A stretch of DNA of 64,000 nt, from contig NZ_CP097332.1 in NCBI RefSeq assembly GCF_023516435.1, positions 2,046,001 through 2,110,000 on the forward strand, given 5' to 3'. The stretch is from Jatrophihabitans telluris (lineage in GTDB: Bacteria; Actinomycetota; Actinomycetes; Mycobacteriales; Jatrophihabitantaceae). Both the position numbers and the translations under genes were made by a program. Below the pieces are notes generated by a model. The model was given only the letters and a program-made list of their open reading frames with translations. It did no database searches and was not told where the DNA came from. Shown one piece after another: positions 21,168 to 40,988 of the stretch. Each line of letters begins with the position of its first letter. The stretch's first letter is position 1.

Positions 21168-21221
21168 ATGAGCATTCTCAACCACGGTGACCGCACCGAC
21201 CAGGACGCGAGGCTCCGATGA
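21168..21221 (+). CDS. Possible 17-codon leader peptide
   Basis: A short frame starting at ATG 21168, encoding MSILNHGDRTDQDARLR. AGGGGGG at 21154-21160 stands 7 bases before its start, better than most sites in the window. Its stop TGA (21219-21221) overlaps the ATG of the Alx/TerC gene (ATGA), so translation of the leader would deliver ribosomes to that gene. The downstream gene has its own weaker GAGG site inside this frame. It could be a translational coupling device, or chance. Confidence 0.35.
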   Translation: MSILNHGDRTDQDARLR

Positions 21222-22159
21222 CCGTTCCCGTCTGGGCCTGGGCGGTCTTCGCATCCGTCGTCCTGGCCATGCTCGCTCTCGATCTGCTCGCCCACCGCCG
21301 TGCGCACGTCGTCGAGTTCGCCGAGGCGGCCCGCTGGAGTGCGGTCTGGGTGGGAGTCTCGCTGGTGTTCGCCCTGGTCGTGGGTCTGACTCTGGGAAGC
21401 ACCGCCGGGGTGGAATTCACGACCGCCTGGCTGTTGGAGAAGTCGCTGTCGGTGGACAACCTGTTCGTCTTCGCCCTCATCTTCGGCTACTTCAAGGTCC
21501 CTCGGGCCTACCAGCATCGGGTGCTGTTCTTCGGTGTTGTCGGCGCGCTGCTCTTCCGCGGTGTGTTCCTGGCCCTCGGGGTGGCCGTCGTCAGCCGGTT
21601 CACGGCGGTGCTGTTCGGCTTCGCCGCCGTCCTGCTCTACAGCGCGTATTCCCTGTTGAAGGGCGGCGACCAGACCTACGATCCCGGCTCCAGCCTCGCG
21701 GTCCGAGTGTTGGGCAAGCTCGTCCCGGTGGCCGATGACTATCAGGGAACCAGCTTCTTCATCAAGCAAGCGGGTCGTCGGGTCGCGACCCCCTTGTTCG
21801 CGGTCGTCGTGGCCGTCGAGGCCGCTGACCTCGTCTTCGCGGTAGACAGCGTGCCGGCTGTGCTGGCGGTCAGCGACGATGCCTTCATCGTCTACAGCAG
21901 CAACGCCTTCGCCATCCTCGGCCTGCGCGCGTTGTACTTCCTGCTCGCCGGTCTGCTGGAGCGCTTTCACCAGCTGTCGCGGGGCCTGGCCGTGATCCTC
22001 GGCTTCATCGGGGTGAAGCTCACCCTGCAGGCCGGGCACAAGGTGATACACCCAGCCATCCCCGAGATCGGTTCGGTGATCAGCCTCGCCGTGATCGTCG
22101 CGGTGCTGGCCGGCGCTGTCGGGCTGAGCCTGCTGCGCCCTGCGACCGGGCGGGCATGA
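21218..22159 (+). CDS. TerC/Alx family membrane protein
   Basis: A 313-residue integral membrane protein with about nine hydrophobic segments. It carries the TerC-family signature LEKSLSVDNLFVFALIFGYFKVP and the second acidic half AVEAADLVFAVDSVPAVLAVSDDAFIVYSSNAFAILGLRALYF. The conserved Asp/Glu pairs within membrane helices are typical of TerC/Alx proteins, which are linked to manganese or calcium handling and to metallation of exported proteins. ATG 21218 has GAGG 5 bases upstream. It is the first gene of the Ter locus and overlaps the ATP-grasp gene if that starts at 22156. Confidence 0.93.
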   Translation: MTVPVWAWAVFASVVLAMLALDLLAHRRAHVVEFAEAARWSAVWVGVSLVFALVVGLTLGSTAGVEFTTAWLLEKSLSVDNLFVFALIFGYFKVPRAYQHRVLFFGVVGALLFRGVFLALGVAVVSRFTAVLFGFAAVLLYSAYSLLKGGDQTYDPGSSLAVRVLGKLVPVADDYQGTSFFIKQAGRRVATPLFAVVVAVEAADLVFAVDSVPAVLAVSDDAFIVYSSNAFAILGLRALYFLLAGLLERFHQLSRGLAVILGFIGVKLTLQAGHKVIHPAIPEIGSVISLAVIVAVLAGAVGLSLLRPATGRA

Positions 22160-22191
22160 TGGGCAGTTCACGAGCGGGGGAGCAGCGACCG

Positions 22192-23271
22192 ATGCTGAGC
22201 ATCTATTTCAACCGGACGTACGCCACCGCAACCCATGTGTTCGATCTCCTCCGCGACAATCCGGACCGCAGGCAGGTCCGAATCCTGGCCAGTCACGTGG
22301 ACCCGGACTCGCCGGTGCTGGCCCGCGCCGACCTCGCCTTCGCCGAGCCGGACCTCACGGGCGAGCACTACATCGAGTGGGCCCTGGACTTCACCGCCCG
22401 CCACGGCGTCGACATTTTCGTCCCTCGAGTGGAACAGGCGGTCATCGCGGCCGCGCGGGATCGTTTCGCCGCGGCCGGTGTGGCGGTGTTGGCGCCCTCA
22501 GCTCAGGCCATCGCGCACTTCGAGGACAAGGCGGCCACCTACCATGATGCGCAGGCCCGGGGCGTGCCCGTGCCGCCGTTCCACGTGGTGCGCACGGGTC
22601 AATCGCTGATCGAGGCCTACGGACGGCTGCGAACGGCTGCGGACCGGGTGATCATGAAGCCGGTCAGTGGTGTCGGGGCCGCCGGGTTTCGTGTGCTGAC
22701 CGACGAGCCGCTGCTGCTCGGCGACGTGATCGGCCCGTTGGAACCACTCGTCGGCCTCGGTCCGGTGGTGAACGCACTGGACCGTGCCCACGAAGCCGGA
22801 ACCTCGGTGCCGCCGCTCCTGCTCATGCCGTTGCTTCCCGGGCCGGAGGTGAGCGTGGACGCCCTCTCCGACGACGGCGGCAGGACGGTCGGCAGCGTCG
22901 CGCGCAGCAAGGACGGACGCCGGCGGATGATCGTCGAGGACGAGCGGGCCACCGCGATCGCGACAACCTTGATCGGAGCCCACCGGCTCTCGACCCTGTC
23001 GAACACGCAGGTCCGATATTGGCAGGCGCCGGGCGACACCGAGCCGCGGCCGTACCTGCTCGAGGTGAACACCCGGATCTCGGGTGGGCTGTTCCAGACC
23101 AAGCTGGCGGGGGTGAACCTCGCCTGGTCGGCGGTCCGGATGGCCCTCGGTCTGGAACCCCAGCTCGGGGTGCCGAACACCGGCATCGGCTACACCACGG
23201 GCTCTTCGGTGCTGTCCTCCGGCACGGTGTCTGCTGAGAAAGCTCTCCGGTCCGAACACCCGGTGCCCTAG
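22192..23271 (+). CDS. Ter-associated ATP-grasp enzyme
   Basis: An ATP-grasp ligase of about 359 residues from ATG 22192 ([21 protein letters not shown]). The earlier ATG 22156 overlaps the TerC stop and would add 12 residues. The N-terminal pre-ATP domain is followed by [17 protein letters not shown] (glycine loop and Lys), [22 protein letters not shown], and the metal-binding [12 protein letters not shown]. The family condenses a carboxylate with an amine or thiol using ATP. In Ter-linked clusters such enzymes are predicted to join in making a nucleoside-like metabolite with the PRTase, CitE-like and HAD genes found at 31716-36336. Substrate unknown. Confidence 0.88.
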
Positions 23272-23330: not shown

Positions 23331-23351
23331 CTCATGAAACGGGAGAATCTC

Positions 23352-23927
23352 GTGGCAGTCAGCCTCACCAAGGGTGGAAACGTCTCACTCACCAAGGAAG
23401 CACCAGGTCTGACCGCGGTGACCGTGGGTCTCGGGTGGGACGCGCGTACCACCGACGGCCAGCCCTTCGATCTGGACGCCTCGGCCATCGGTTGCGACGC
23501 CAACGGCAAGGTCCTGTCCGACAGCTACTTCGTGTTCTTCAACAACCTCAAGAGCCCCGACGGCGCGATCGAGCACACCGGAGACAACATCACCGGAGAA
23601 GGCGAGGGCGACGACGAGCAGCTCAAGGTCAACCTGGTCGCCGTCCCGGCCGGGGTGGACAAGGTCGTGTTCATCGTCTCGATCTACGACGCGGAGAACC
23701 GTCGCCAGTCCTTCGGACAGGTACGAAATGCCTTCATCCGCGTCGTCAATCAGGCCGGCGGCGCCGAGATCACTCGCTACGACCTGTCCGAGGACGCTTC
23801 CACCGAAACCGCGATGATCTTCGCCGAGCTGTACCGCAGCGGTGCCGAGTGGAAGTTCCGCGCGATCGGGCAGGGCTACGCTTCCGGCCTGTCGGGCATC
23901 GCCCGGGACTACGGCGTCAACGTCTGA
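23352..23927 (+). CDS. terD: TerD family protein
   Basis: A 191-residue TerD-domain protein from GTG 23352, with GGGAGA upstream. It shows the full family pattern: [14 protein letters not shown] start, [49 protein letters not shown], and [21 protein letters not shown]. The acidic DLDAS, GDN and GDDEQ blocks are the calcium-binding sites known from TerD. Cytoplasmic TerD proteins confer tellurite and other stress resistance through a mechanism not yet settled. Close paralogue of the next gene; the pair arose by duplication. Confidence 0.95.
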
Positions 23928-24038
23928 GCCCGGGCCGTCACCGGCAGGCTCGACGCCGGCGCTCACCGACTCCAAGGAACGGGACGGCCGCGCCCGTCGT
24001 TCGGGCTCTAGACAGTCACATAACGGAGGTAATCCAGC

Positions 24039-24617
24039 ATGTCCGTCAGCCTCGCCAAGGGTGGCAACGTCTCTCTGACCAAACAGGCGCCGAACCTGCG
24101 CGCCGTCCTGGTCGGTCTCGGGTGGGACGAGCGCACGACGAGCGGGGCGGCCTTCGACCTGGACGCGAGCGCGTTGATGGTCAACGAAGCCGGCCGGATC
24201 CTGTCCGATGCGCACTTCGTGTTCTTCAACAACCTCAAGAGCCCGGACGGATCGGTCCAGCACACCGGCGACAACCTCACCGGTAGCGGAGAGGGCGACG
24301 ACGAGCAGATTCTGGTCGATCTCTCGGTGGTGCCTGCCGACTGCGCCCGGATCGTCTTCCCGGTCTCCATCTATGACGCCGAGACCCGCCGGCAATCCTT
24401 CGGCCAGGTGCGCAACGCCTTCATCCGGGTCGTCAACCAGGACGACGGGGCCGAGTTGACGCGCTACGACCTGACCGAGGACGCCTCGGCCGAAACCGCG
24501 ATGATCTTCGGCGAACTGTACCGCCACGGTGGCGAGTGGAAGTTCCGAGCCGTCGGCCAGGGCTATGCCTCGGGGCTGGCCGGAATCGCCCGGGACTTCG
24601 GAGTCAACGTTGGCTGA
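24039..24617 (+). CDS. terD: TerD family protein
   Basis: A 192-residue TerD-domain protein starting at ATG 24039 with an excellent GGAGGT site. It matches its upstream neighbour through most of its length ([73 protein letters not shown]). All calcium-binding acidic blocks are intact. It differs mainly in the [12 protein letters not shown] region and the last residues. It probably assembles with the other TerD-family proteins near the membrane. A CATAAC-GGAG arrangement precedes both this gene and the DUF475 gene. Confidence 0.95.
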
Positions 24618-24686: not shown

Positions 24687-25793
24687 ATGTTGCTGAAAAC
24701 CTTCGGCGGCGCCTTCGCGGTGACCCTCGTCGGGCTCGTGCTCGCCTTCATCTACGGCGGCACCACCGGCTTGACCGTCGCGGCGATCCTCGGCGTGCTG
24801 GAGATCTCGGTCTCCTTCGACAACGCGGTCGTCAACGCCAAGTACCTCGGGCGTCTCAACGCCTTCTGGCAGCGGATGTTCCTCACGGTCGGGGTACTGA
24901 TCGCCGTGTTCGGCATGCGCCTGCTCTTCCCGGTCGTGATCGTGTGCCTGACGGCGCACATCAGTCCGGCGAAGGCCTACCACCTGGCGATGAACGGCGG
25001 CAGCGTTCACACCCCCGGCACGTACGCCCACCTGCTGCACGACGCGCACCCGGCGATCGCGGCCTTCGGTGGGATCTTCCTGCTGACGTTGTTCCTCGAC
25101 TTCATCTTCGAGGAACGCGAGATCACCTGGCTCAGCTGGCTCGAACTCCCGCTCGCCCGAATCGGCAAGCTCGACCAGATCTCGGTCGTGGTCTCCGGCG
25201 TCGTGCTCGTGCTCGCAGCGAACTTCATCGCGCCGGCGAGCAAGACGTCCAGCGTGCTGGTCGCCGGCATCTTCGGCCTGATCGTGTACCTGGTGGTCAA
25301 CGGCATCGGCGGCTTGTTCGAAGACGACGACGAGGAGGACCCCGACGAGGCGCCCGAAGCGTCGGCCCGGCGTCGGGTCGCTGCCGCCGCCGGTATGGCC
25401 GGTCGGGCTGCCTTCGGCGTGTTCCTGTTCCTGGAAGTCCTGGACGCGACGTTCAGCTTCGACGGGGTCATCGGCGCCTTCGCGATCACCTCCGACCCGA
25501 TCATCATCGCGATCGGTCTGGGCATCGGCGCGATGTACATCCGGTCCCTGACGGTGTTCCTGGTCCGAAAAGGCACCCTGAGCGAGTTCGTCTACCTCGA
25601 GCACGGCGCCCACTGGGCAATCGGCTCGCTGGCCGTTCTCTTGCTGTTCACCATTAAGTACGAGGTTCCCGAAGTGGTCACCGGCTTGATCGGTGTCGGA
25701 TTCATCGGCTTGGCCCTGCTCTCCTCCGTCCTGCGGAATCGACGCAACCGCAGCGACGTATCCGATCTCGAGATCGAATCGGTCCCTGTGTGA
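24687..25793 (+). CDS. DUF475 (TerC-superfamily) membrane protein
   Basis: A 368-residue polytopic protein of the DUF475 family, related to TerC. Two symmetric halves carry the intramembrane acidic motifs LEISVSFDNAVVNAKYL and FLEVLDATFSFDGVIGAFAIT. A cytoplasmic acidic loop EDDDEEDPDEAPEA (about 212-225) separates them. Such proteins are thought to move or sense divalent metals alongside TerD proteins. ATG 24687 has CAGGAG 11 bases upstream. Its paralogue at 21218 belongs to the Alx branch, so this locus has both TerC types. Confidence 0.93.
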   Translation: MLLKTFGGAFAVTLVGLVLAFIYGGTTGLTVAAILGVLEISVSFDNAVVNAKYLGRLNAFWQRMFLTVGVLIAVFGMRLLFPVVIVCLTAHISPAKAYHLAMNGGSVHTPGTYAHLLHDAHPAIAAFGGIFLLTLFLDFIFEEREITWLSWLELPLARIGKLDQISVVVSGVVLVLAANFIAPASKTSSVLVAGIFGLIVYLVVNGIGGLFEDDDEEDPDEAPEASARRRVAAAAGMAGRAAFGVFLFLEVLDATFSFDGVIGAFAITSDPIIIAIGLGIGAMYIRSLTVFLVRKGTLSEFVYLEHGAHWAIGSLAVLLLFTIKYEVPEVVTGLIGVGFIGLALLSSVLRNRRNRSDVSDLEIESVPV

Positions 25794-26659: not shown

Positions 26660-27238
26660 ATGAGTGTGAGCCTGACCAAGGGCCAGAAGGTATCGCTGAC
26701 CAAGAACAACGGCGGCAGCCTGAGCAAGGTGCGGATGGGCCTGGGCTGGGACGCGGTGCGCAAGCGCGGACTGTTCGGATCCCGCGCGCAAAGCATCGAC
26801 CTGGACGCCTCGGCGTTGCTGTTCGACAGTTCGGGATCCCTCGTCGACCAGGTCTGGTTTCGCCAGCTGCGCTCGACCGACGGTTCGGTGCAACACACCG
26901 GGGACAACCGCACGGGTGCCGGCGAGGGCGATGACGAGTCGATCCGAGTCGACCTGACCCAGGTGCCCCCGAGGGTGAGCACCCTGGTGTTCACCGTCAA
27001 CTCCTTCACCGGCCAGGACTTCTCCCAGATCGAGAACGCCTTCTGCCGGCTGATCGACGAGACCTCTGGCGACGCCGAGATCGCCCGTTACGACCTGAGC
27101 GGTTCCGGCTCGCACACCGCCCAGATCATGGCCAAGCTGTCGCGCGACGGCACCGGCTGGACCATGACCGCACTCGGGATCCCGGCCTCGGGCCGGACTT
27201 TCCACGACCTGCTGCCGGCGCTGGCCGGACAGCTCTGA
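26660..27238 (+). CDS. TerD family protein (divergent)
   Basis: A 192-residue TerD-domain protein from ATG 26660. It starts MSVSLTKGQKVSLTKNNGGSLSKVRMGLGWD and carries [29 protein letters not shown] and GEGDDESIRVDL, so the calcium-binding residues are preserved. Its C-terminus differs from the classic members (YDLSGSGSHTAQIMAKLSRDGTGW, then GRTFHDLLPALAGQL) and resembles TerZ/TerF-like or actinobacterial variants. It is preceded by the 22-bp palindrome and followed by a 173-base gap before telA, which has its own ribosome site. Confidence 0.92.
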   Translation: MSVSLTKGQKVSLTKNNGGSLSKVRMGLGWDAVRKRGLFGSRAQSIDLDASALLFDSSGSLVDQVWFRQLRSTDGSVQHTGDNRTGAGEGDDESIRVDLTQVPPRVSTLVFTVNSFTGQDFSQIENAFCRLIDETSGDAEIARYDLSGSGSHTAQIMAKLSRDGTGWTMTALGIPASGRTFHDLLPALAGQL

Positions 27239-27411: not shown

Positions 27412-28644
27412 ATGTCGGAACTCGATCTCGGATCTACGCCTACCGCTGCCCCCACGGCCACTGCGGGTACCAACCCGGGTGCGTTGGTGCTTGCGCCACC
27501 GGCGCCGGTAGTCGTGGTGGAGAAGGAACAGGCCCTCGGCGCGATCCCGCTCGATGAGACCAAGAAGAGCGAGCTGCAGACCAAGGCCGCGCAGTTCGTC
27601 GAAGGACTGGCCGCCCTGGACCCGCACTCCCCGGAGTTCGCCACGAAGGTCACCCAGATCACGACGATGGGCGACAACGACATGCGCGCCGCCGCGGCGA
27701 TGTCCAACCGGATGCTCGAGCGACCGGCAGCGGCAATGGGCAAGGGCAAGGGCGGCGGTGACGCGCAGGTCCGGGTGTCCAACACGCTCGTCGATCTGCG
27801 GCACACCGTCACCGACCTCGATCCCAACCGGGCCGACCTGTCCGGTGTGAAGAAGGTGATGAAGTGGCTGCCCGGCGGCGACAAGGTGGATCGGTACTTC
27901 GACAAGTACCGCTCGGCCCAGTCCCACCTCGACGCGATCATCAAGGCGCTGGCCTCGGGCCAGGACGAGCTCCGCAAGGACAACGCCGCGATCGAGACCG
28001 AGAAGGCCAACATGTGGACGACCATGGGCAAGATCAGCGAGTACAACGAACTCGCCGGTGCCCTGGACTCGGCCGTGGAGAACAAGGTGGCGCAGCTCGA
28101 GGCGTCGGGCAAGGTCGAGGACGCGAACATCATGCGGTCTGATGCGCTGTTCCCGATCCGCCAACGCCGGCAGGACCTCATGACGCAGATGGCGGTCAAC
28201 GTGCAGGGCTACCTGGCCCTCGATCTCATCCGCAAGAACAACATCGAACTGATCAAGGGCGTCGACCGCGCCCAGACGACCACGATCGCGGCGCTGCGCA
28301 TCGCGGTCATCGTTTCCCAGGCGTTGTCGCGGCAGAAGCTGGTGCTGGACCAGATCAACGCCCTCAACACCGTCACGTCCAACCTGATCGAGTCGACCTC
28401 CGAACAGCTCAAGCTGCAGGGTGCGGCCATCAACCAGCAGGCCGCGTCGTCGACGATCGAGGTGGCGAAGCTGCAGGCGGCCTTCGACAACGTCTTCGCC
28501 ACGATGGACGCGATCGATACCTTCCGGGCACAGGCGGTGGAGTCGATGGGTCAGACCGTGACCGCCCTGGAGGGCCAGATCGAACGGGCCAAGCCGTACC
28601 TGGAGCGCACCCGCCGCGGCGAGGTCTCCGGCTCCGGCCAGTAA
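27412..28644 (+). CDS. telA: TelA-like toxic anion resistance protein
   Basis: A 410-residue soluble, mainly alpha-helical TelA-family protein starting at ATG 27412 after AAGGAGAAGGAA. The first 45 residues are an Ala/Pro/Thr-rich tail. The core shows GDNDMRAAAAMSNRMLERPAAAM, LPGGDKVDRYFDKYRSAQSHLDAIIKAL and the well-conserved DLIRKNNIELIKGVDRAQTTTIAALR. The C-terminal third is long coiled-coil helix with a few short breaks. TelA proteins protect against tellurite and cell-envelope stress in an undefined way and are often encoded next to a small partner, here the 167-aa gene 14 bases downstream. Confidence 0.93.
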   Translation: MSELDLGSTPTAAPTATAGTNPGALVLAPPAPVVVVEKEQALGAIPLDETKKSELQTKAAQFVEGLAALDPHSPEFATKVTQITTMGDNDMRAAAAMSNRMLERPAAAMGKGKGGGDAQVRVSNTLVDLRHTVTDLDPNRADLSGVKKVMKWLPGGDKVDRYFDKYRSAQSHLDAIIKALASGQDELRKDNAAIETEKANMWTTMGKISEYNELAGALDSAVENKVAQLEASGKVEDANIMRSDALFPIRQRRQDLMTQMAVNVQGYLALDLIRKNNIELIKGVDRAQTTTIAALRIAVIVSQALSRQKLVLDQINALNTVTSNLIESTSEQLKLQGAAINQQAASSTIEVAKLQAAFDNVFATMDAIDTFRAQAVESMGQTVTALEGQIERAKPYLERTRRGEVSGSGQ

Positions 28645-28658
28645 CGGACCGGTCTTCG

Positions 28659-29162
28659 TTGACCTGGTTTCGTCGGGGCACCGACGGCAATTCCGCCAGC
28701 GCCAGTGCCGCCGCCGCGCAGGCAGCCGACAGTGCGGCCGACAGCCCAGCCACCCTTCGTGCCGAGCTGTTCCGGGTGGTGCGCTTCGTGAACCAGAACT
28801 CCGGCCGGCTGCCGCCCGCGGCGGTGGTCGATGCTCGCCGCGTGACCGACACCCTGCGCGAGATCATCGACACCTCCGAGGTGCGGCCGTTGGACGTCTA
28901 CGCGATCGTGAGCCTGCGGGGGGCTCTGGAGGACTACCTGCCGACGACGCTGCGCAGTTACCTCGCCGTAGAACCGAATCTCATCGACACCGCGAGGATC
29001 TCGGGTCTGACACCGCGTCAGTCCCTGCTGGAGCAGCTGGCGTCCCTGCAGACCGCCGCGTCGGCCGTCCTGCTGGCAGCGCAGAATCAGGACGTGGACG
29101 CGCTGATGACCCAAGGCAACTTCCTCCGGACGAAATTCTCCGGATCGGACCTCGATCTCTGA
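28659..29162 (+). CDS. Unrecognised TelA-adjacent protein, 167 aa
   Basis: A 167-residue protein from TTG 28659, the only usable start in the frame; its ribosome site is weak. It lies 14 bases after telA, and its stop overlaps the next terD start by 1 base (TGATG), so it is translated as part of the operon. Residues 10-30 are Ala/Ser-rich; the rest is helical with RVVRFVNQNSGRLPPAAVVDARRVTDTLREI and LRGALEDYLPTTLRSYLAV. The YLPTTL stretch recalls XpaC-type proteins that pair with TelA in Firmicutes, but this is only a resemblance. Function unknown; a TelA partner is the best guess. Confidence 0.7.
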   Translation: MTWFRRGTDGNSASASAAAAQAADSAADSPATLRAELFRVVRFVNQNSGRLPPAAVVDARRVTDTLREIIDTSEVRPLDVYAIVSLRGALEDYLPTTLRSYLAVEPNLIDTARISGLTPRQSLLEQLASLQTAASAVLLAAQNQDVDALMTQGNFLRTKFSGSDLDL

Positions 29163-29725
29163 TGGCCGAAATGCGCCGCGGGTCCAACGTCGAGTTGACC
29201 CGGGAGATCCCCGACCTGGCGAAGGTCATCCTCGGAGTGCGCTTCAACGCCGGGTCCGAGCACGTGCTGGCGGACAATCTCGTGGTCGCGACGCTGCTCA
29301 CCGACCGGTCCAGCCGCATCCTGTCCGATGAGCATTTCGTGTTCTTCAATCAGCTGAGCTCGCCGGAGGAATCGGTCAGCCAGCGAGAGGCCGCCCTGGG
29401 CGGAGACGACGAGCAGGTCGAGGTCGACCTCGCCGCCGTGCCCGCCGCCGTCGAGCGGGTCGTCGTCGTCCTGTACCTCAACGAGGGCATCGCGCAGCGA
29501 CGCTCACTCGGTCAGCTGCGTGAGTGTGTCATCCGGGTGGTCGATGCCGGGAACAACAGCGAACTCGTGCGCTCGGAGAATCTGGCTCCGGCCTTGAGCG
29601 CCGAGACGGCGATTGCGCTCGGTGAGCTGTACCGGCACTCCGGCGGCTGGAAGTTCAAGGTGATCGGGGACGGCTACACCAAAGGGATCGCCGGAATCGC
29701 GGCCGACTACGGGATCGCCCTGTGA
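29162..29725 (+). CDS. TerD family protein (divergent)
   Basis: A 187-residue TerD-domain protein from ATG 29162, overlapping the previous stop by 1 base. It keeps the general layout (MAEMRRGSNVELTREIPDLAKVILGVRF, SSRILSDEHFVFFNQLSSPEESV, GGDDEQVEVDLAAV, GELYRHSGGWKFKVIGDGYTKGIAGIAADYGI). However, the usual FDLDAS block is replaced by NLVVATLLT and the HTGDN loop is altered to QREAALGGDDEQ. One of the calcium sites is therefore probably lost. It may act as an adaptor within TerD complexes. Confidence 0.9.
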   Translation: MAEMRRGSNVELTREIPDLAKVILGVRFNAGSEHVLADNLVVATLLTDRSSRILSDEHFVFFNQLSSPEESVSQREAALGGDDEQVEVDLAAVPAAVERVVVVLYLNEGIAQRRSLGQLRECVIRVVDAGNNSELVRSENLAPALSAETAIALGELYRHSGGWKFKVIGDGYTKGIAGIAADYGIAL

Positions 29726-29744: not shown

Positions 29745-30809
29745 GTGAGCCCACGAGATCCGGCCACCGCACCGCCGCGGCCCGATCTGGCGTACCTCAA
29801 GCACCGATCGCGCCCGCGACGTCCCGGCGGAGATGCGGCGACGCCGGCCCGGGCGGTCGCGGACTTCATCCACTCCAGTGGCGCCCATCCCACCCATCGG
29901 CCGACAGTCGAGGACCGCACCGCCACGGTGCAACCACCGCGTCCTGTGCAACCACCGTCGCCTGTTCACCCGCCCGCGCCTGTGGAACCGCCCGCCGCAG
30001 GGGCCTCGCGCGTAGCGGCAGCCGAGGAGAACCTGCTCGATCTGTCGCCGTCGTCGGACACTGCCACTTCGGGTGCTGCCCGACCTCGCTCCTCTGCGAG
30101 CCAACCCTCTGCGAGCCAACCCCCTGCGAGCCAACCCCCTGCGAGCCAACCACCCGCCCCGCCCGCGGACCGGTCTGCGGGAGCCGAGCGGACCACTTCG
30201 CCGCTGAGGACCTCGACCGCCTCCGGTCTGACGTACTCGGTGCGTCGACTCACCCGAGCCGCACCGACGATCCTCACGCCGAAGGCGCCCGCAGTGACGC
30301 TGAGCCGATTGCAATCCGGGATAGGAGTGCTGGTGTTCACGGCCGCCTGCTCCCCGGCGGTGGGGGATCTGCGCCTGGGGTGTGCCTACGAACTGGCCTC
30401 CGGCCAGTCCTCGATCGTGCAGTACGTCAGCGGGGTCACCACCGGGCCGCCGACCGGCAACCGGCCGCTACTAGTGGCGGCCCGTCACGAGTTCGAGCAG
30501 ATCACCGTCGACCTGGCGCAGTCGCGCAACCTCGTGCGCCTGATCGTCTATGCCTTCTCCGAGTCCGGGCGGGTGCTGAACTGGGGCGGGACGCTGGTGG
30601 CCAGCACTTACGGCGGTGACCGCGTCGAACTGCCGTTGGACCGGCCGCCCTCGAATGAGACGGGCGTGCTGCTCTCGCTCTACAACGTCGACGGGGAATT
30701 GACCCTTCGTGCCGAGATGGAGGAGTTCCGCGGAACGGTGCGCGACGCGGTCAACGCCTACGGCTTCGACCGGATCACCTGGCTCGACGGCCGCAGTCCC
30801 CTCACCTAG
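29745..30809 (+). CDS. TerA-like protein with long repeat linker
   Basis: A 354-residue protein from GTG 29745. Residues 1-150 are disordered and Pro/Ala/Arg-rich, with [18 protein letters not shown] and four SQPPA-type units encoded by a 15-bp repeat (30091-30150). The C-terminal 200 residues form a TerA-like TerD-superfamily domain: [60 protein letters not shown], and [19 protein letters not shown]. It resembles the 25826 gene, which has a shorter tail. Its stop overlaps the convergent TerD gene by 8 bases. Linker length may vary between strains. Confidence 0.83.
30091..30150 (+). repeat. 4 x 15-bp in-frame tandem repeat
   Basis: Four copies of a 15-base unit with core CTGCGAGCCAAC, the first two beginning CCT and the last two CCC. 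They are head to tail in the TerA-like gene and encode the Ser-Gln-Pro linker. The multiple of three keeps the frame if copy number changes. Confidence 0.9.
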
Positions 30810-31554
30810 GCGGCCAGGGGGTCACCGGCGAGTGCGGCGGCGGCGAGCCGGGTGTCGGTTGTTGCGGCTGCGGCGGAGGGGGCGGCGGCCAACTCGGGTG
30901 CGCTGAGGATCCGAAGGACCCGGTGGCGGGCGCGGCGACCGGCGTGCTGGCTCCCCACGGTGCCGGAGTCGCTGCCGGGGCTGGCGCCGGGGCTGGCACC
31001 CGAGCAGAGGCAGGCACGGGGATCGGGGCCGGATGGGTATCGGTCTCGACGGTGATCCCGAAATCACCGGCCAACCCCGCCAGGCCGGAGGCGTAGCCCT
31101 GCCCGACGGCCCGGAACTTCCACTGCCCGGCCCGGCGGTACAACTCACCGGCCAGAAAGGCGGTCTCGGTTGAGGCGCTCATGTCGAAACGGGCAACCTC
31201 GGCCCCGGTACCGGCCTCGCGCACGAGCAAGAACAGGCCGGGGACCTGACCGAAACTGCCGCCATCGGCAGAGCTGGCCAGCACGATCCGTTCGATGCCG
31301 GGCTCGACTGCCTGCAGGTCGATCTCGAGCGCGTCGGTGTCGCCCCCTTTGCCCAGGTGCCGCACGGCCCCGCTACGGTGTCGCGGCTGGTTGTAGAAGA
31401 CGAAGTCCTCGTCGTTGCGGACGCGACCGCTCTCGGTGAGCAGCAGCGCCGAGAAATCCACGTCCGGCACGCCCGGACCGGGAGCCCAGTGCAGCTCCGC
31501 CCGGACAACGGCTGCGGGGACGGCGCAGTTGGCGCCGGGAGTCAAGGACGTCAT
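30802..31554 (-). CDS. TerD family protein with Pro-rich tail
   Basis: A 250-residue protein, the only ter gene on the minus strand in this locus. ATG 31554 opens the frame. Residues 1-175 form a compact TerD domain ([94 protein letters not shown]). Residues 176-250 are Pro/Ala-rich and end in [17 protein letters not shown]. The tail could bind SH3- or WW-like domains or span the cell-wall zone if anchored. The stop overlaps the end of the TerA-like gene by 8 bases, an unusual convergent overlap. Confidence 0.87.
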
Positions 31555-31715: not shown

Positions 31716-32876
31716 GTGCGACATTTCGACTTCCTCTCCGCCGACGACCGTGACCGCCTGTTCTTGCATCCGCCTCAGGAGTTCGGCCTGGATGATCCGC
31801 CGAGCGTGCTGGCGGTAGCGCTCGGCGCGACGCTCTACATTCCGGCGACCCGTCCGCACCTGGCCGAAAGCATCGCCAAGCGGGCGGCGCAGGGCGTGCT
31901 GAGCGCGGTGGTGTGCCTCGAGGACGCCATCGCCGATGCCGACCTGCCCGCGGCCGAACGCAACGCCGTAGCTCAACTGCGTAGCTACGCCCGAACCGAC
32001 GCGCCGAAGCCGCTGGTCTTCGTCCGGGTGCGGGCAGCGGAGCAGATTCCGATGGTGGTGGCCGAACTCGGCGAACAGGTCGGCGTGCTCGCCGGCTTCG
32101 TCCTGCCGAAGTTCACCGAGGCCAGCGGTCTGGCCTACCTGGAGGCCGTCACCGCGGCCGGTGAATCGGCGGGGCGCCGCATGCTGGCGATGCCGGTGCT
32201 GGAGACTCGGGAAATCAGCTACGCCGAGCAGCGGCTGAACGAATTGTTGGCCGTCCGCGAACTGCTGGAGAAGTACCGGCCCAACGTGCTGGCCGTCCGG
32301 CTCGGGGCAACCGACCTGTCTGCGACCTACGGGTTGCGACGACCGCGGGAGCTGACGATCTATGACGTGCGGCTCGTCGCGGATGTGATCAGCGACGTGG
32401 TCAACGTCCTGGCTCGCGCCGATGGCAGCGGGTGGGTGGTCACCGGTCCGGTCTGGGAGTACTTCTCCGGGACCGAGCGGCTGTTCAAACCGCAGTTGCG
32501 GGAGTCGCCGTTCATCGAGCACGAGGAACGCTCGTTGCGGGCCGAGCTCATCGCTCGCGACCTCGACGGCCTGATCCGGGAGGTGTTGCTGGATCGGGCG
32601 AACGGCCTGCTCGGAAAGACGGTTATTCACCCGACCCATGTCGCCGCGGTTCACGCGCTTTCGGTCGTGACCCACGAGGAATTCTCCGACGCCACCGACG
32701 TTCTGGGCACGCAGGCGGGGGGCGGGGTGGCGGCGTCCAGTTACCGGAACAAGATGAACGAGTCCAAGCCGCATTCGGCGTGGGCGCGCCGGATCATGCA
32801 GCGGGCGCACGCGTTCGGCGTCGCGCACGAGTCGACCTCCTTCGTCGACCTGCTCGGAGCGGGGCTGCACCAGTGA
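31716..32876 (+). CDS. CitE-like (HpcH/HpaI) aldolase/lyase
   Basis: A 386-residue TIM-barrel enzyme of the HpcH/HpaI-CitE superfamily. GTG 31716 has AAAGGAG 8 bases upstream. GATLYIPATRPHLAESIAKRAAQG, AVVCLEDAI (metal-binding Glu/Asp), FVRVRAAEQIPMV, MPVLETREI and LLGKTVIHPTHVAAVHAL follow the family order. CitE-like enzymes cleave or form carbon-carbon bonds on acyl-CoA or 2-keto acids. This variant is the type found with ter genes, where it is predicted to supply a carbon unit for a nucleoside-like product. It overlaps the PRTase fusion gene by 4 bases (GTGA). Confidence 0.9.
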   Translation: MRHFDFLSADDRDRLFLHPPQEFGLDDPPSVLAVALGATLYIPATRPHLAESIAKRAAQGVLSAVVCLEDAIADADLPAAERNAVAQLRSYARTDAPKPLVFVRVRAAEQIPMVVAELGEQVGVLAGFVLPKFTEASGLAYLEAVTAAGESAGRRMLAMPVLETREISYAEQRLNELLAVRELLEKYRPNVLAVRLGATDLSATYGLRRPRELTIYDVRLVADVISDVVNVLARADGSGWVVTGPVWEYFSGTERLFKPQLRESPFIEHEERSLRAELIARDLDGLIREVLLDRANGLLGKTVIHPTHVAAVHALSVVTHEEFSDATDVLGTQAGGGVAASSYRNKMNESKPHSAWARRIMQRAHAFGVAHESTSFVDLLGAGLHQ

Positions 32877-35533
32877 CAACGCCGGCCTCCGGCGGGTGGG
32901 TGCGTGAGCACTTGGGTATCGAGCTCACCGACACGCCCGGACGGACGGGTCTGACCGTGACCGAGCTAGCGGGAATCGCCCTGCGGCGCAACCGGAAACG
33001 AGCCCAGCTGCTGGTCTCCTCCGTCCTCGGCAAGCACTGCCCGACCGACCCTCGAATCGTCTATGGCGCCGGTCTGTTGCTCGGGGAGCTGGTCACCGGT
33101 TGCCTCGCGACGGGCGAGGAAGCAACGAGGGCAACCTCAACGATGCGGGGCGAGCAACATGGGCAACGTCAACGCGAGGGCGGCGAACTGTTGAGACGCG
33201 GGTTGGCCGGTGACGCGCAAGCGGCCCAGCAGTTGCTCGACCGCTGCTCGCCGGCCAGTGTCGGAGGCAGCCACCCAGGGGTGCTGGTCCTGGGTTACGC
33301 CGAGACCGCAACCGGTCTCGGGCACGCCGTGGCCGACGCACTGGGCTGCACCTACCTGCACTCGACCCGCCGGCACGTTCCCGGAAGCCCGCCGACCGGT
33401 GGGTTCAGCGAAGAACACTCCCACGCTACCGAGCACCTGCTCGTGCCCGAAGACGTCCGGATGGTCGAGGCCGCCGCGACCATCGTGTTGGTCGACGACG
33501 AACTCTCGACCGGTCGGACGGTTCGCAATACGATCGCGGCCCTGCAGGCCACCGCGCCGCGCGCTCGCTACGTCATCGCCAGCCTCATCGACCTGCGGCC
33601 ACCGGCAGAGCAGGAGGAACTGCAGCGGTTCGCACGCGAGCAGAACACCCAGATCCAGGCCGTCGCGCTGGCCGGCGGCCGGATCGAGCTGCCCGGTGGC
33701 CTGGACGAATCCGCCGCGACGGTCATCAGCGCGCTCGATGACCGAACGACCCCCGTGCCTGATCCAGGCGCCCCGGCCGGTTCGAGCTCGACCCCGAGCG
33801 TCGCCGGCACGCTCGACCGCGTCCTGTCCGAGGCGTGGCCGGCCGGCGTACGGGAAGGAGGCCGGCACGGTTTCGATCCGGGCGATCGACCGGCCCTGCT
33901 CGCTGCGGCCGAACGCTGCGCCCGGGCCCTGGTAGGTGACGGGCCGGCTGATCGGGTGCTCGTGCTGGGCACCGAGGAACTGATGTACGCCCCGATGCAG
34001 ATCGCCCTTGCCCTGCAGCGGATCTGCCCGCAATCGACGGTCCGGTACTCGACGACGACGCGGTCACCGGTGCTCGCGGTCGACGATGCGCGCTACCCGA
34101 TCCGCACGGCTATCAGCTTTCCCGCCTTCGACCGTCCCGTCGAAGGACCGGCTGCCCGGTTCGCCTACAACGTCGCGGCCGGACAGGATCGCGCTGACCG
34201 TTTCGACCGCGTGATCCTGGTGACCGACGACGAGACCGATTCCGTTCTGCTCGCGGCGCCGGGCGGCCTGCTGGACCAGCTGCGCCACTGCGTCGGACGG
34301 GTGAGTCCGGTGCGGATTCCCGCGCACCGCCCGCGTCGCAGCCCGCTGCGTGGACCACGGTTCGGCAGCTATCCCGCTGAGGAGGTGGCCTGGCTGCTGC
34401 AGGATCTGTCGGCGGTGGACCTGGAGGCGCCGACGGAGGAACGCGAAGAGGCCATCCAGGGCGGGGGAGCCCACTACGCCGAGTCCTTGCCGATCGAGTA
34501 TCAGCCGAGTCCGGAATACCAACGGCTCTACGAGCAGGCGGTCAGCGCCTCGTCCCTGCGGGTGGCGCACGCGGTGGGCATCGTGACCGAGCGCGTGCTC
34601 GCCGCCCGGGGTCCCCACGCGGTGTTGGTATCGCTCGCGCGCGCCGGTACGCCGGTAGGAGTGCTCATGCGGCGCTGGGCCCGGTGGCGTCACGGACTCG
34701 AGCTGGACCACTACGCCGTGAGCATCGTCCGCGGCCGCGGAATCGACGCCAGCGCACTGGCCTTCCTCGCCCGCCATCACGATCCTCGCTCGGTCATGTT
34801 CGTCGACGGCTGGACGGGCAAGGGTGCGATCGCGAGGGAACTGGCCGCGGCCGTCGCCCGAGCCAACGATCCGTCTGGACCTGTGGGGCTCGGGGATTCA
34901 CCGGCCGTTCGTTTCGAGGGTTTCTCCGGTGAGCTCGCCGTGCTGGCCGACACTGGATCGTGCGTGCGCATCTTCGGTACCCGCGACGATTTCCTGATTC
35001 CGTCGGCCTGCCTGAACTCGACGGTGTCGGGTTTGGTCTCGCGCACGGTGCTCAACGACGAGCTGATCGGCTCGGGCGAACTGCACGGGGCGAAGTTCTA
35101 TCGCGAACTGGCGCCCGTGGACGTCTCCGGTCACTTCGTCGATGCGGTGTCGGCTCGCTTTGCCGAAGTCGGCGCCGGCGTCGACCGCGAGGTGTGCGAT
35201 CAGCTGGCCGGCCGGGTGGACACCGAACCGACCTGGGCCGGCTGGCGCGCGGTCGAGGCCCTGTCCGAGGAATACGGCATCCACCAGGTGAATCTGGTCA
35301 AGCCGGGTGTCGGGGAGACCACCAGAGTGCTGTTGCGCAGGGTTCCCTGGCGGATCCTGGTCCGGCCGTCGGCGCTGACCGAACTCGCCCACGTGCTGTT
35401 GCTGGCCGAACAGCGGGGGGTGCCGATCGAGGAGCGAGCCGACCTTCCCTACAGCTGCGTCGGCCTGATCCACCCGCGCTACACCCGAAGCGCGGTCGGC
35501 GCCGACGGCGTCTCGGCGGGAGCTCCCGCATGA
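32873..35533 (+). CDS. PRTase-TRSP-StiP-PELOTA fusion protein
   Basis: An 886-residue multidomain protein from GTG 32873. (1) About 130-310: a phosphoribosyltransferase domain with the PRPP loop IVLVDDELSTGRT at 204-216. (2) About 345-480: a TRSP domain named for its TRSP motif, here at residues 396-399 (YSTTTRSPVLAVDDA). (3) About 540-750: a StiP/PRTase-like domain with FVDGWTGKGAI at 643-653 and the conserved Cys in PSACLNSTVSGLV. (4) About 801-875: a PELOTA-type RNA-binding domain (YGIHQVNLVKPGVGETTRVLLRRVPWRILV). These modules are the predicted core of the Ter-linked nucleoside-like pathway; in some other genomes they are separate proteins. Confidence 0.85.
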   Translation: MTTPASGGWVREHLGIELTDTPGRTGLTVTELAGIALRRNRKRAQLLVSSVLGKHCPTDPRIVYGAGLLLGELVTGCLATGEEATRATSTMRGEQHGQRQREGGELLRRGLAGDAQAAQQLLDRCSPASVGGSHPGVLVLGYAETATGLGHAVADALGCTYLHSTRRHVPGSPPTGGFSEEHSHATEHLLVPEDVRMVEAAATIVLVDDELSTGRTVRNTIAALQATAPRARYVIASLIDLRPPAEQEELQRFAREQNTQIQAVALAGGRIELPGGLDESAATVISALDDRTTPVPDPGAPAGSSSTPSVAGTLDRVLSEAWPAGVREGGRHGFDPGDRPALLAAAERCARALVGDGPADRVLVLGTEELMYAPMQIALALQRICPQSTVRYSTTTRSPVLAVDDARYPIRTAISFPAFDRPVEGPAARFAYNVAAGQDRADRFDRVILVTDDETDSVLLAAPGGLLDQLRHCVGRVSPVRIPAHRPRRSPLRGPRFGSYPAEEVAWLLQDLSAVDLEAPTEEREEAIQGGGAHYAESLPIEYQPSPEYQRLYEQAVSASSLRVAHAVGIVTERVLAARGPHAVLVSLARAGTPVGVLMRRWARWRHGLELDHYAVSIVRGRGIDASALAFLARHHDPRSVMFVDGWTGKGAIARELAAAVARANDPSGPVGLGDSPAVRFEGFSGELAVLADTGSCVRIFGTRDDFLIPSACLNSTVSGLVSRTVLNDELIGSGELHGAKFYRELAPVDVSGHFVDAVSARFAEVGAGVDREVCDQLAGRVDTEPTWAGWRAVEALSEEYGIHQVNLVKPGVGETTRVLLRRVPWRILVRPSALTELAHVLLLAEQRGVPIEERADLPYSCVGLIHPRYTRSAVGADGVSAGAPA

Positions 35534-36336
35534 CTGTGCTGGTGGCCTCGGACCTGGACCGGACGCTGATCTACTCCAAGGGTGCGCTGGCCTTGTCCAG
35601 TAAGAAACACGCCACGTTGGTCTGCGTGGAACGGGACAACGGCGTCGAGGCAGCCTTCATGACCGCGGCCGCCGCGACGGCCCTGCAGCAGCTGACCCGA
35701 ACCGCGGTGCTGATGCCGGTGACGACTCGCATTCCCAAGCAGTTGGACCGGGTGGTGCTACCGGGCGGCAGGCCGAGGTTCGCCGTCGCGGCCAACGGCG
35801 GCTTCCTCTTCGTCGACGGCGCACTGGATCGAACCTGGAGCCGCACGGTGTCGGCTTCGCTGGCCCAGGTCGCGTCCTTGCACGAAGTGTGGACGCACGT
35901 CGCCGCGGCCTGCGATGCGGACTGGACCGTGAAACTGCGCAACGCCGACGGCATGTTCTGTTATGCCGTGGTTCATCGGGCGGCGATGCCTGCCGGGTTC
36001 CTGGCCGAGATCAGCGCCTGGGCCGACAGCCGCGGCTGGTCGACGTCTCTACAGGGCCGCAAGCTGTACTGGGTACCCAAGACCCTGACCAAAGCCGCCG
36101 CCACGCTCGAGGTTGCTCGCCGGATCGACGCCGAAACCGTTCTGGCGGCAGGGGATTCGCTGCTCGACATCGATCTGCTGGAAGCCGCCGACCGCGGTAT
36201 CCGTCCGGCTCACGGGGAATTGTTCGACGCGGGTTGGAGTGCGCCGCACGTCGTGGGGACCGAGTCGGCCGGGGTACGGGCGGGCGAGGAGATCTGCCGG
36301 TGGTTCGCCGAGCAGGTCGCGGCCTCTGCGTCCTGA
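35530..36336 (+). CDS. HAD phosphatase (Ter-linked)
   Basis: A 268-residue HAD-superfamily hydrolase from ATG 35530, overlapping the fusion gene by 4 bases (ATGA). The catalytic motif I is ASDLDRTLIYS (nucleophile Asp8, acid/base Asp10), motif II is PVTTR, Lys lies in VPKTLTKAAATL, and motif IV is AAGDSLLDIDLLEA. The cap is of the Cof/SPP-like type between motifs II and III. It probably removes a phosphate from the nucleotide-like intermediate made by the PRTase and ATP-grasp steps. It closes the plus-strand operon; the convergent GH26 gene ends 35 bases away. Confidence 0.9.
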   Translation: MTVLVASDLDRTLIYSKGALALSSKKHATLVCVERDNGVEAAFMTAAAATALQQLTRTAVLMPVTTRIPKQLDRVVLPGGRPRFAVAANGGFLFVDGALDRTWSRTVSASLAQVASLHEVWTHVAAACDADWTVKLRNADGMFCYAVVHRAAMPAGFLAEISAWADSRGWSTSLQGRKLYWVPKTLTKAAATLEVARRIDAETVLAAGDSLLDIDLLEAADRGIRPAHGELFDAGWSAPHVVGTESAGVRAGEEICRWFAEQVAASAS

Positions 36337-36371: not shown

Positions 36372-37538
36372 TCAGCAGCGTTGACCGGCGGCAGCACCCG
36401 TGACCGCCGCACCCGTGACCGCCGCACCCCCTCCGATCCCGAGGCCCGACAGCGAGGTGCGTAAGGCCTGGACCGAGGCCGGGTTCTTGTCGATGCGGTA
36501 GTAACCGGTGGCGCCGGTGGTTTCCGGGGTGGTGTCGTAGTACACGAAGCCCCGGATGCGTGGATTCGCCGCCATGAACGGTCCGAGCTGCGCCAACCAC
36601 GACGCCTGCTCGCTGCCCTCGACGCCGATCTCGGCGAGCAACAACGGCCGCGTGGACAGATGTTGCAGGGCGGCCACGGTGGGGCAGTAGGTCGACGCGA
36701 CCGAGTCACCGTGGCTGTAGCCGCTGAGCCCGACCAGATCGACGTAGTCGTCACCGGGGTACAGCCCGGCCAACCTGGGCGCTCCCTTGGGTGTGCCGGC
36801 GAAGATGTTCGGCGCCCAGACCCAGGAGGTGCGCTGACCGAGGATCGGCGCGATCAGATCGTGGACATGACGCCAGGCCGCGATGTACTGCCCGGCCTGG
36901 TTACCGTTGACCGCCTGGGCCCACGGGTACCAGGCACCGTTCATCTCGTGCGCGAAACGCAGGTACAGGGGACGCTGGGCCGCGGCCAGCTCGGAGCCCA
37001 CCGCGCGAAGCTGGGCGTCGAACGTGCCCGAGCTCAATGCGGCCAGCGTGTAGCGGGATTGCTGCGCATCTCCCCAGCGGCTGTGCTGTGACCACGGTTC
37101 GAGGCTGACCATGGGCGTTACGCCGGCCGGGACGGCGGCCAAAGCGGCGGTGATGCCAGGCGAATCAAGCTTGATGAACACCGAGCTGACAGTCGGCGGG
37201 GTGCCGACCGACTTCGCGAACTCGGTGAAGGCGGCCGCCGAGCCGTTGGGTACATCCAACCCGTAGAAGCGGGGTATCGGGGTCGCCGGCTTCGGTCTCA
37301 TCGCGTTCACCGCGAACCCGGCCACAACCAGCAGAGACAGCACCGCTGCGACGAGGGCGCACCACGCCGGCCATCGTCGCCCACCGCCCGACCGGTCAAT
37401 TGCGGAGCTGCCGGAACCCCTGCGGCCGGAACCCCTGCGGCCGGAACCCCTGCGGCCAGAACCCCTGCTGCCCGGCCCTGTCGTGAGCTGCTCGCGGCCG
37501 ACCGACGTGCCGACGTCCGGGTGCGCGGTAGCGGTCAC
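36372..37538 (-). CDS. Membrane-anchored GH26-like glycosidase
   Basis: A 388-residue protein from GTG 37538, overlapping the glycosyltransferase stop by 4 bases. Residues 1-45 are cytoplasmic and contain GSGRR units from a 15-bp repeat; WPAWCALVAAVLSLLVVAGF is a single membrane anchor. The outer domain is GH26-like (mannanase/beta-glucanase clan A): LYLRFAHEMNGAWYPW gives the acid/base Glu and LLLAEIGVEG the nucleophile Glu, with YPGDDYVDLVGLSGY between. The C-terminal AVTGAAVTGAA comes from another short repeat. It probably trims or releases the polysaccharide made by the adjacent synthase. Confidence 0.87.
   Translation of the reverse strand: MTATAHPDVGTSVGREQLTTGPGSRGSGRRGSGRRGSGRRGSGSSAIDRSGGGRRWPAWCALVAAVLSLLVVAGFAVNAMRPKPATPIPRFYGLDVPNGSAAAFTEFAKSVGTPPTVSSVFIKLDSPGITAALAAVPAGVTPMVSLEPWSQHSRWGDAQQSRYTLAALSSGTFDAQLRAVGSELAAAQRPLYLRFAHEMNGAWYPWAQAVNGNQAGQYIAAWRHVHDLIAPILGQRTSWVWAPNIFAGTPKGAPRLAGLYPGDDYVDLVGLSGYSHGDSVASTYCPTVAALQHLSTRPLLLAEIGVEGSEQASWLAQLGPFMAANPRIRGFVYYDTTPETTGATGYYRIDKNPASVQALRTSLSGLGIGGGAAVTGAAVTGAAAGQRC
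36395..36424 (-). repeat. 2 x 15-bp repeat at GH26 3' end
   Basis: Two identical copies of CACCCGTGACCGCCG (36395-36409 and 36410-36424). They encode the Ala-Val-Thr-Gly-Ala tail of the GH26-like protein and preserve its frame. Confidence 0.8.
37411..37470 (-). repeat. 4 x 15-bp in-frame tandem repeat
   Basis: Three exact copies of CCGGAACCCCTGCGG (37411-37455) and a fourth differing at two bases (37456-37470). Read on the minus strand they encode Gly-Ser-Gly-Arg-Arg units in the cytoplasmic segment before the membrane anchor. Confidence 0.9.
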
Positions 37539-40918: not shown

Positions 40919-40988
40919 ATGCGGGGTGCTCCAAGCCGGTGCGGAGAGTGGCAACAAGAATTCGTCACTGAGCGTGGCAGGAGTCTAT

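Follow-up and report, generated by a model that had tools for sequence, protein, structure and literature searches.

What would be the function of a protein that joins the domains PRTase_2, TRSP, StiP and PELOTA in one chain, and is its StiP part a phosphoribosyltransferase (PRTase) or a protease? The question is raised by a gene of Jatrophihabitans telluris, located in a stretch of 64,000 nucleotides (contig NZ_CP097332.1, positions 2,046,001 to 2,110,000; hereafter the window). In Pfam and in the NCBI annotation StiP is named a cysteine protease. Profile matches, the modelled fold and the missing cysteines support a PRTase fold with predicted transferase activity and do not support a protease. 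With a probability of roughly 0.7 the whole fusion, including StiP as PRTase, is a phosphoribosylating enzyme of the Ter (tellurite/chemical-stress, phage-response) cluster. The PRTase nature of StiP was, reportedly, probably implied already by Anantharaman et al. 2012; therefore a test is claimed here, not a discovery.

Domains of the fusion and the nature of StiP

The initial annotation had described four domains in one chain of 886 amino acids (aa). This is borne out by the open reading frame and by Pfam, with scores far over the curated cut-offs for all four domains:

32873..35533, + strand: four-domain fusion PRTase_2-TRSP-StiP-PELOTA, 886 aa, GTG start
32966..33679, + strand: PRTase_2 domain, aa 32-269 (Pfam 6.4e-60)
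33482..33520, + strand: loop IVLVDDELSTGRT in PRTase_2, aa 204-216, binding phosphoribosyl pyrophosphate (PRPP) (from sequence)
33854..34273, + strand: TRSP domain, aa 328-467 (Pfam 5.9e-33)
34058..34069, + strand: TRSP motif T396-R397-S398-P399 (from sequence)
34364..35149, + strand: StiP domain, aa 498-759 (Pfam 1.6e-100)
34622..34660, + strand: phosphate/hood loop VLVSLARAGTPVG of StiP, aa 584-596 (R590-A-G-x-P-x-G invariant)
34793..34831, + strand: PRPP-type loop VMFVDGWTGKGAI of StiP, aa 641-653 (D645, W647 and G651 invariant)
35234..35473, + strand: PELOTA_1 domain, aa 788-867 (Pfam 3.2e-35)

The reading frame overlaps the lyase gene before it by GTGA and the HAD gene after it by ATGA. 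The PRPP loop at 204-216 and the TRSP motif at 396-399 were found as annotated. The loop FVDGWTGKGAI at 643-653 of StiP is present too, but it holds no Cys, although a conserved one had been ascribed to it. The PELOTA domain is real, but starts at about 788, some 13 residues earlier than the proposed 801.

By its modelled fold and its motif, PRTase_2 is a canonical type I PRTase, predicted to be PRPP-dependent. Its loop IVLVDDELSTGRT follows the type I pattern hhhhDDxxSTGxT, and D208, D209, E210, S212, T213, G214 and T216 are invariant across 35 fused relatives. The model of the domain matched OPRT, APRT, UPRT and PyrR with Z of about 9-10, so that loop and PRTase fold are both present in the first domain.

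For StiP, a phylum-wide search with the profile gave a weak match to a PyrR encoded beside a pyrB-like gene, and on this PyrR the Pfam StiP profile reached E=9e-5. An AlphaFold2 model of StiP-PELOTA was calculated from 36 sequences, with a mean predicted local distance difference test (pLDDT) of 65 and a predicted template modelling score (pTM) of 0.74. With Foldseek alone, poor long alignments dominated (template modelling score about 0.2) and PyrR was placed at rank 39 though its probability was the highest; VIA-align 2 was used in its place for models of moderate confidence. The best match of the StiP model was to residues 636-995 of Bcs3 (CriT; Z 8.9), followed by ten PyrR entries (Z 7.3-7.9) and by HGPRT/GPRT (Z 6.5-6.9). 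PyrR, a uracil PRTase and RNA-binding attenuator, shares the type I PRTase fold with StiP. In contrast to StiP, it has no PELOTA tail, carries a complete PRPP loop (DD..TG) and acts for the pyr operon.

Conservation was examined across a diverse set of 18 StiP-PELOTA proteins, drawn from actinobacteria, proteobacteria, plasmids and phages. None of the 22 invariant positions is a Cys, and a catalytic Cys conserved family-wide was not found among these members. Invariant are R590-A-G-x-P-x-G and D645-x-W, located in two PRPP-type loops, as well as the polar residues D625, D693, D706 and R724. The StiP homologue of the jumbo phage ME3 is annotated as phosphoribosyl transferase, and a HAD gene lies beside it. 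Searches against PDB chains gave no match with a single StiP sequence and only L7Ae matches, limited to the PELOTA part, with the StiP-PELOTA profile; a search with a divergent StiP sequence yielded chance matches only.

Several observations weigh against StiP, and with it the fusion, as a PRPP-using enzyme. StiP lacks the canonical PRPP loop with its pair of acidic residues. The loop VDGWTGKG has a single Asp and is two residues shorter than the canonical one; StiP is therefore a divergent member of the PRTase superfamily at most. The hhalign comparison of PRTase_2 with the StiP profile was not above shuffles, and because of this the kinship of both domains rests on the fold and on PyrR. Model confidence is moderate (mean pLDDT 65 and 69, with StiP residues 692-744 below 50), and Z of 7-9 does not lie far over the values for unrelated matches. 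Furthermore, Cys713 is conserved within the actinobacteria, where it may have a lineage-specific role. In the literature no biochemistry was found for any of the PRTase_2, TRSP, StiP and PELOTA domains.

The tail is predicted to be an RNA-binding-type domain like L7Ae/eL30. The StiP-PELOTA profile matched archaeal L7Ae in the PDB (E=5e-4), with KPGxGETTR aligned to KKGANEVTK, and the PELOTA part of the model matched eL30, L7Ae, 15.5K and Pelota with Z of 4.3-5.3, so that the PELOTA fold expected in the initial annotation is present in the model. E815, R818 and R823 are invariant. Besides the fold, the tail shares the motif K-x-G-x-x-E-x-[TS]-[KR] with L7Ae, eL30 and Pelota, so that E-x-T-[KR] and ExxR are kept; unlike these proteins, it mostly has Gly or Ala at the position where the Asn of L7Ae contacts kink-turns. 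The abstract of Anantharaman et al. 2012 is said to predict RNA contact of one PRTase by way of a Pelota/L7Ae-like domain. The first proposal, that a single chain holds two PRTase-type (PRPP-handling) modules plus a tail of RNA-binding type, is supported.

For TRSP the comparison is suggestive, not proof, of a degenerate PRTase-like half in which the first beta-alpha-beta unit of PRTase_2 recurs. Both domains share such a unit with a common terminal motif, in the Raoultella example PVLFIGMAETAVGLGAGV...VYLTSTRHP for PRTase_2 and RILVLGTGEFVWEPFLLAERLEAAGAQALYGSTTRSP for TRSP, and in the profile alignment the TRSP motif is aligned with STRR/STRH-P of PRTase_2. With hhalign a score of 26.6 was obtained vs a shuffle maximum of 20.6 (P=0.0012; 0 of 300 column shuffles as good), at an hhalign probability of only 20%. 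In the secondary structure predicted for TRSP, the elements (strand 361, helix 372, strand 389; strand 446, helix 466, strand 476) follow each other as they do in PRTase_2 (137, 144, 160, then 203, 215, 232). The PRPP loop is lost in TRSP.

Proposed function and alternatives

Anantharaman, Iyer and Aravind 2012 reportedly described the Ter biosynthetic module and predicted a nucleoside-like Ter metabolite. The fusion gene is embedded in a full ter cluster of the window (Pfam), in which all four domains, the C-C lyase, HAD and ATPgrasp_Ter partners and the linkage to TerD, TerC and TelA are present. The Ter set has been described as a module whose PRTases and HAD enzymes produce a nucleoside- or nucleotide-like signal, and it shares with the locus PRTase_2-TRSP, StiP-PELOTA, C-C lyase, HAD and ATP-grasp beside TerD/TerC/TelA (PMC7824862). 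In contrast to this module, two of its genes form one chain here, as in Streptomyces and several other actinobacteria. That the fusion, with its two PRTase-type modules and its RNA-binding-type tail, acts with neighbouring enzymes is supported and is essentially the published Ter prediction.

In the proposed mechanism, PRTase_2 would use PRPP as a canonical PRTase, and TRSP would pack on it, either completing PRTase_2 or binding a second phosphate ligand. StiP would be a second, divergent transferase of PRTase fold, using PRPP as PyrR or CriT does. It could pass ribose-5-phosphate to a non-nucleobase acceptor, after which the neighbouring HAD enzyme would strip the 5-phosphate. The ATP-grasp enzyme and the C-C lyase may prepare, build or ligate the acceptor, and the combined output would be the nucleoside-like signal or metabolite that published work predicts for Ter. 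Regulation or localisation of the enzyme is the probable role of the PELOTA tail. Within a translationally coupled operon, fusion of two genes that are adjacent elsewhere would fix their ratio at 1:1.

Residues 632-1036 of Bcs3 are CriT, which is reported to transfer ribofuranose-5-phosphate from PRPP before a HAD phosphatase removes the phosphate; this pair was demonstrated in capsule synthesis of Haemophilus influenzae type b (PMC10299916). The gPRT + PRP ribofuranosyltransferases are a further case of a PRPP transferase with a HAD phosphatase (PMC11127046). Thus, CriT + CrpP and gPRT + PRP are an experimental precedent for a PRPP transferase and a HAD enzyme acting on a non-nucleobase acceptor. 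They share with the locus a PRTase-like PRPP transferase, CriT being the best structural match of StiP, together with the phosphatase, but they use a glycan acceptor, lack PRTase_2, TRSP and PELOTA, and have no Ter context.

A more tentative reading comprises three PRTase-derived modules, an active PRTase_2, a degenerate TRSP and a divergent StiP, with StiP as PRPP transferase of the CriT/gPRT type and a non-nucleobase acceptor that is possibly held on RNA via PELOTA. If true, the ribosylated stress metabolite would belong to a new class.

It is unlikely that StiP-PELOTA is a pseudo-enzyme, i.e. a PyrR-like RNA-binding regulator on a PRTase scaffold that senses PRPP or a metabolite and controls expression. 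In favour of this reading, PyrR is a PRTase that binds RNA and ranks among the top matches by structure and by profile, the ExxR motif is retained in PELOTA and the PRPP loop of StiP is shortened. However, no conserved leader RNA was detected: Rfam gave no significant structured RNA in the ter cluster, and upstream of the lyase a promoter-like block and no kink-turn-like leader was seen, by inspection only. The invariant polar residues D625, D645, D693, D706, R590 and R724 are in keeping with a functional active site.

Very improbable is a genuine cysteine protease StiP that processes a Ter protein while PRTase_2 alone makes the metabolite. The locally conserved cysteines, C697 and C713, are not family-wide: in members mainly of other phyla and of phages, C713 is replaced by Met, Ile or Leu and C697 by Arg, Ile, Leu, Val or Ser, while R590AGxPxG, D625, D645-x-W, D693 and D706 are invariant. 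The family name in Pfam and NCBI is in favour of a protease, as is the conservation of both cysteines (about 97%), and likewise of H534, H613 and H738, in a set of mostly Streptomyces proteins; the region around C713 is modelled without confidence. Fold and profile matches indicate PRTases, and the protease label misdirects experimenters.

That RNA is the substrate of ribosylation is scarcely credible: PELOTA has the RNA-binding fold of L7Ae/eL30 and is joined to StiP in almost every member seen, and eukaryotic Rit1 ribosylates initiator tRNA using PRPP, a precedent by which the RNA attachment suggested in the initial annotation would not be wholly new chemistry, but the regular partners C-C lyase, HAD and ATP-grasp fit a soluble metabolite, the kink-turn Asn is replaced, and attachment of a product or substrate to RNA is unsupported.

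Ter clusters occur on thousands of plasmids, with StiP in 2567 plasmid records, and in many Streptomyces genomes. StiP as a second PRPP-using enzyme with a HAD partner would offer a direct assay, in which PRPP and a candidate acceptor are supplied and phosphate release follows; for it, the actinobacterial protein is convenient as a single chain. What is worthwhile here is the argument against calling StiP a protease, together with a possible make-up of three PRTases.

Occurrence and history of the fusion

The fused architecture is known and widespread, and common in Streptomyces. Of 247 genomes sampled from the whole class Actinomycetes, 55 held StiP over the family cut-off, and 51 loci of this class (31 + 20) were inspected for the fusion state. 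All four domains are in one frame in 30 of them, while PRTase_2-TRSP and StiP-PELOTA are separate adjacent genes in the other 21. Thus, other actinobacteria keep the fusion, and it is not unusual. Fused loci comprise every inspected member of the Streptomyces family and some members of several other families, that of the window among them. A single reading frame was also present in 77 of 80 named relatives, nearly all Streptomyces. Two loci (L099 and L103) appear split within the N-terminal half, which may be a frameshift or an assembly error.

In the tree of StiP-PELOTA the label fused or split requires five changes, at least three of them forced by well-supported branches, and the nearest neighbour of the window is the split form of Sanguibacter. 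Separate neighbouring genes were found in Mycolicibacterium, Rhizobium, Raoultella and on Pseudomonas plasmids. In Mycolicibacterium alvei the order is lyase, PRTase_2-TRSP, StiP-PELOTA and HAD-like, with overlaps of 4 bp between the genes. Because of the 30 fused and 21 split loci and the several changes in the tree, the fusion is regarded as a repeated, unremarkable joining (or splitting) of neighbours. A passage of substrate between the sites, as initially suggested, is unsupported, since many lineages encode the two halves as separate genes.

Some related loci were observed besides. Two loci of Actinobacteria outside the class (L115 and L116) carry a divergent PRTase_2/StiP pair with the loop VDGWTSGGG and only a weak PELOTA match (7e-4), adjoined in L116 by a HAD-like gene; this pair is a distinct sub-system. 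On MT836648.1, a contig labelled as fecal phage, StiP is 39% identical to that of the window, vs 33-35% for the forms of proteobacterial plasmids; the contig probably represents either a piece of bacterial DNA or a ter cluster that is mobile. In a plasmid ter operon of Pseudomonas paraeruginosa (L142:1780-2919) a TerD-like domain (4.6e-8) is fused to a trypsin-like peptidase (Trypsin_2, 1.9e-27), located between ATP-grasp and PRTase_2.

The ter cluster and its surroundings

The genes around the fusion are the following:

21218..22159, + strand: TerC membrane protein (Pfam 2.7e-48)
22156..23271, + strand: ATPgrasp_Ter ligase of the Ter biosynthetic pathway (Pfam 2.2e-28)
23334-23927 and 24039-24617 (span 23334..24617), + strand: two TerD proteins (Pfam 1e-83, 5e-86)
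24687..25793, + strand: TerC-family DUF475 membrane protein (Pfam 3.9e-126)
26660..27238, + strand: TerD protein (Pfam 3.7e-48)
27412..28644, + strand: TelA (Pfam 1.9e-85)
29162..29725, + strand: TerD protein (Pfam 2.5e-48)
30802..31554, - strand: TerD protein with proline-rich tail, divergent to the lyase-fusion-HAD operon (Pfam 1.8e-43)
31716..32876, + strand: C-C bond lyase (TIM barrel, HpcH/HpaI-like) in the operon of the fusion (Pfam 8.3e-120)
35530..36336, + strand: HAD phosphatase in the operon of the fusion (Pfam Hydrolase_3 2.8e-4)

The lyase and HAD genes are kept in all 64 relatives with complete flanks, and TerD, a TerA-like gene and DUF475 were likewise found in 64 of 64. Between TelA and TerD, a protein of 167 aa (28659-29162, + strand) had no Pfam match; it was unmatched in the scanned Streptomyces flanks, which may stop short of its position. 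Nothing useful was matched with PADLOC or PHROGs.

About 30-100 bases before the start of the C-C lyase, GGAAC-N14-19-CGTAY was present in 67 of 82 upstream regions, nearly all from Streptomyces, and in 1 of 82 in the reversed control; TACTATTACCGGCCA occurred in 67 of 82 regions as well. This conserved block looks like an extracytoplasmic function (ECF) sigma promoter of the lyase-fusion-HAD operon. In the window, a block of the GGAAC/CGTAY type is absent before the C-C lyase.

Adjoining the ter cluster, two GH26-like (mannanase-type) proteins are encoded at 36372-38309 and 39245-40957 (both - strand), flanking a cellulose-synthase-like GT2 gene (37535-39238). These genes are possibly an exopolysaccharide locus.

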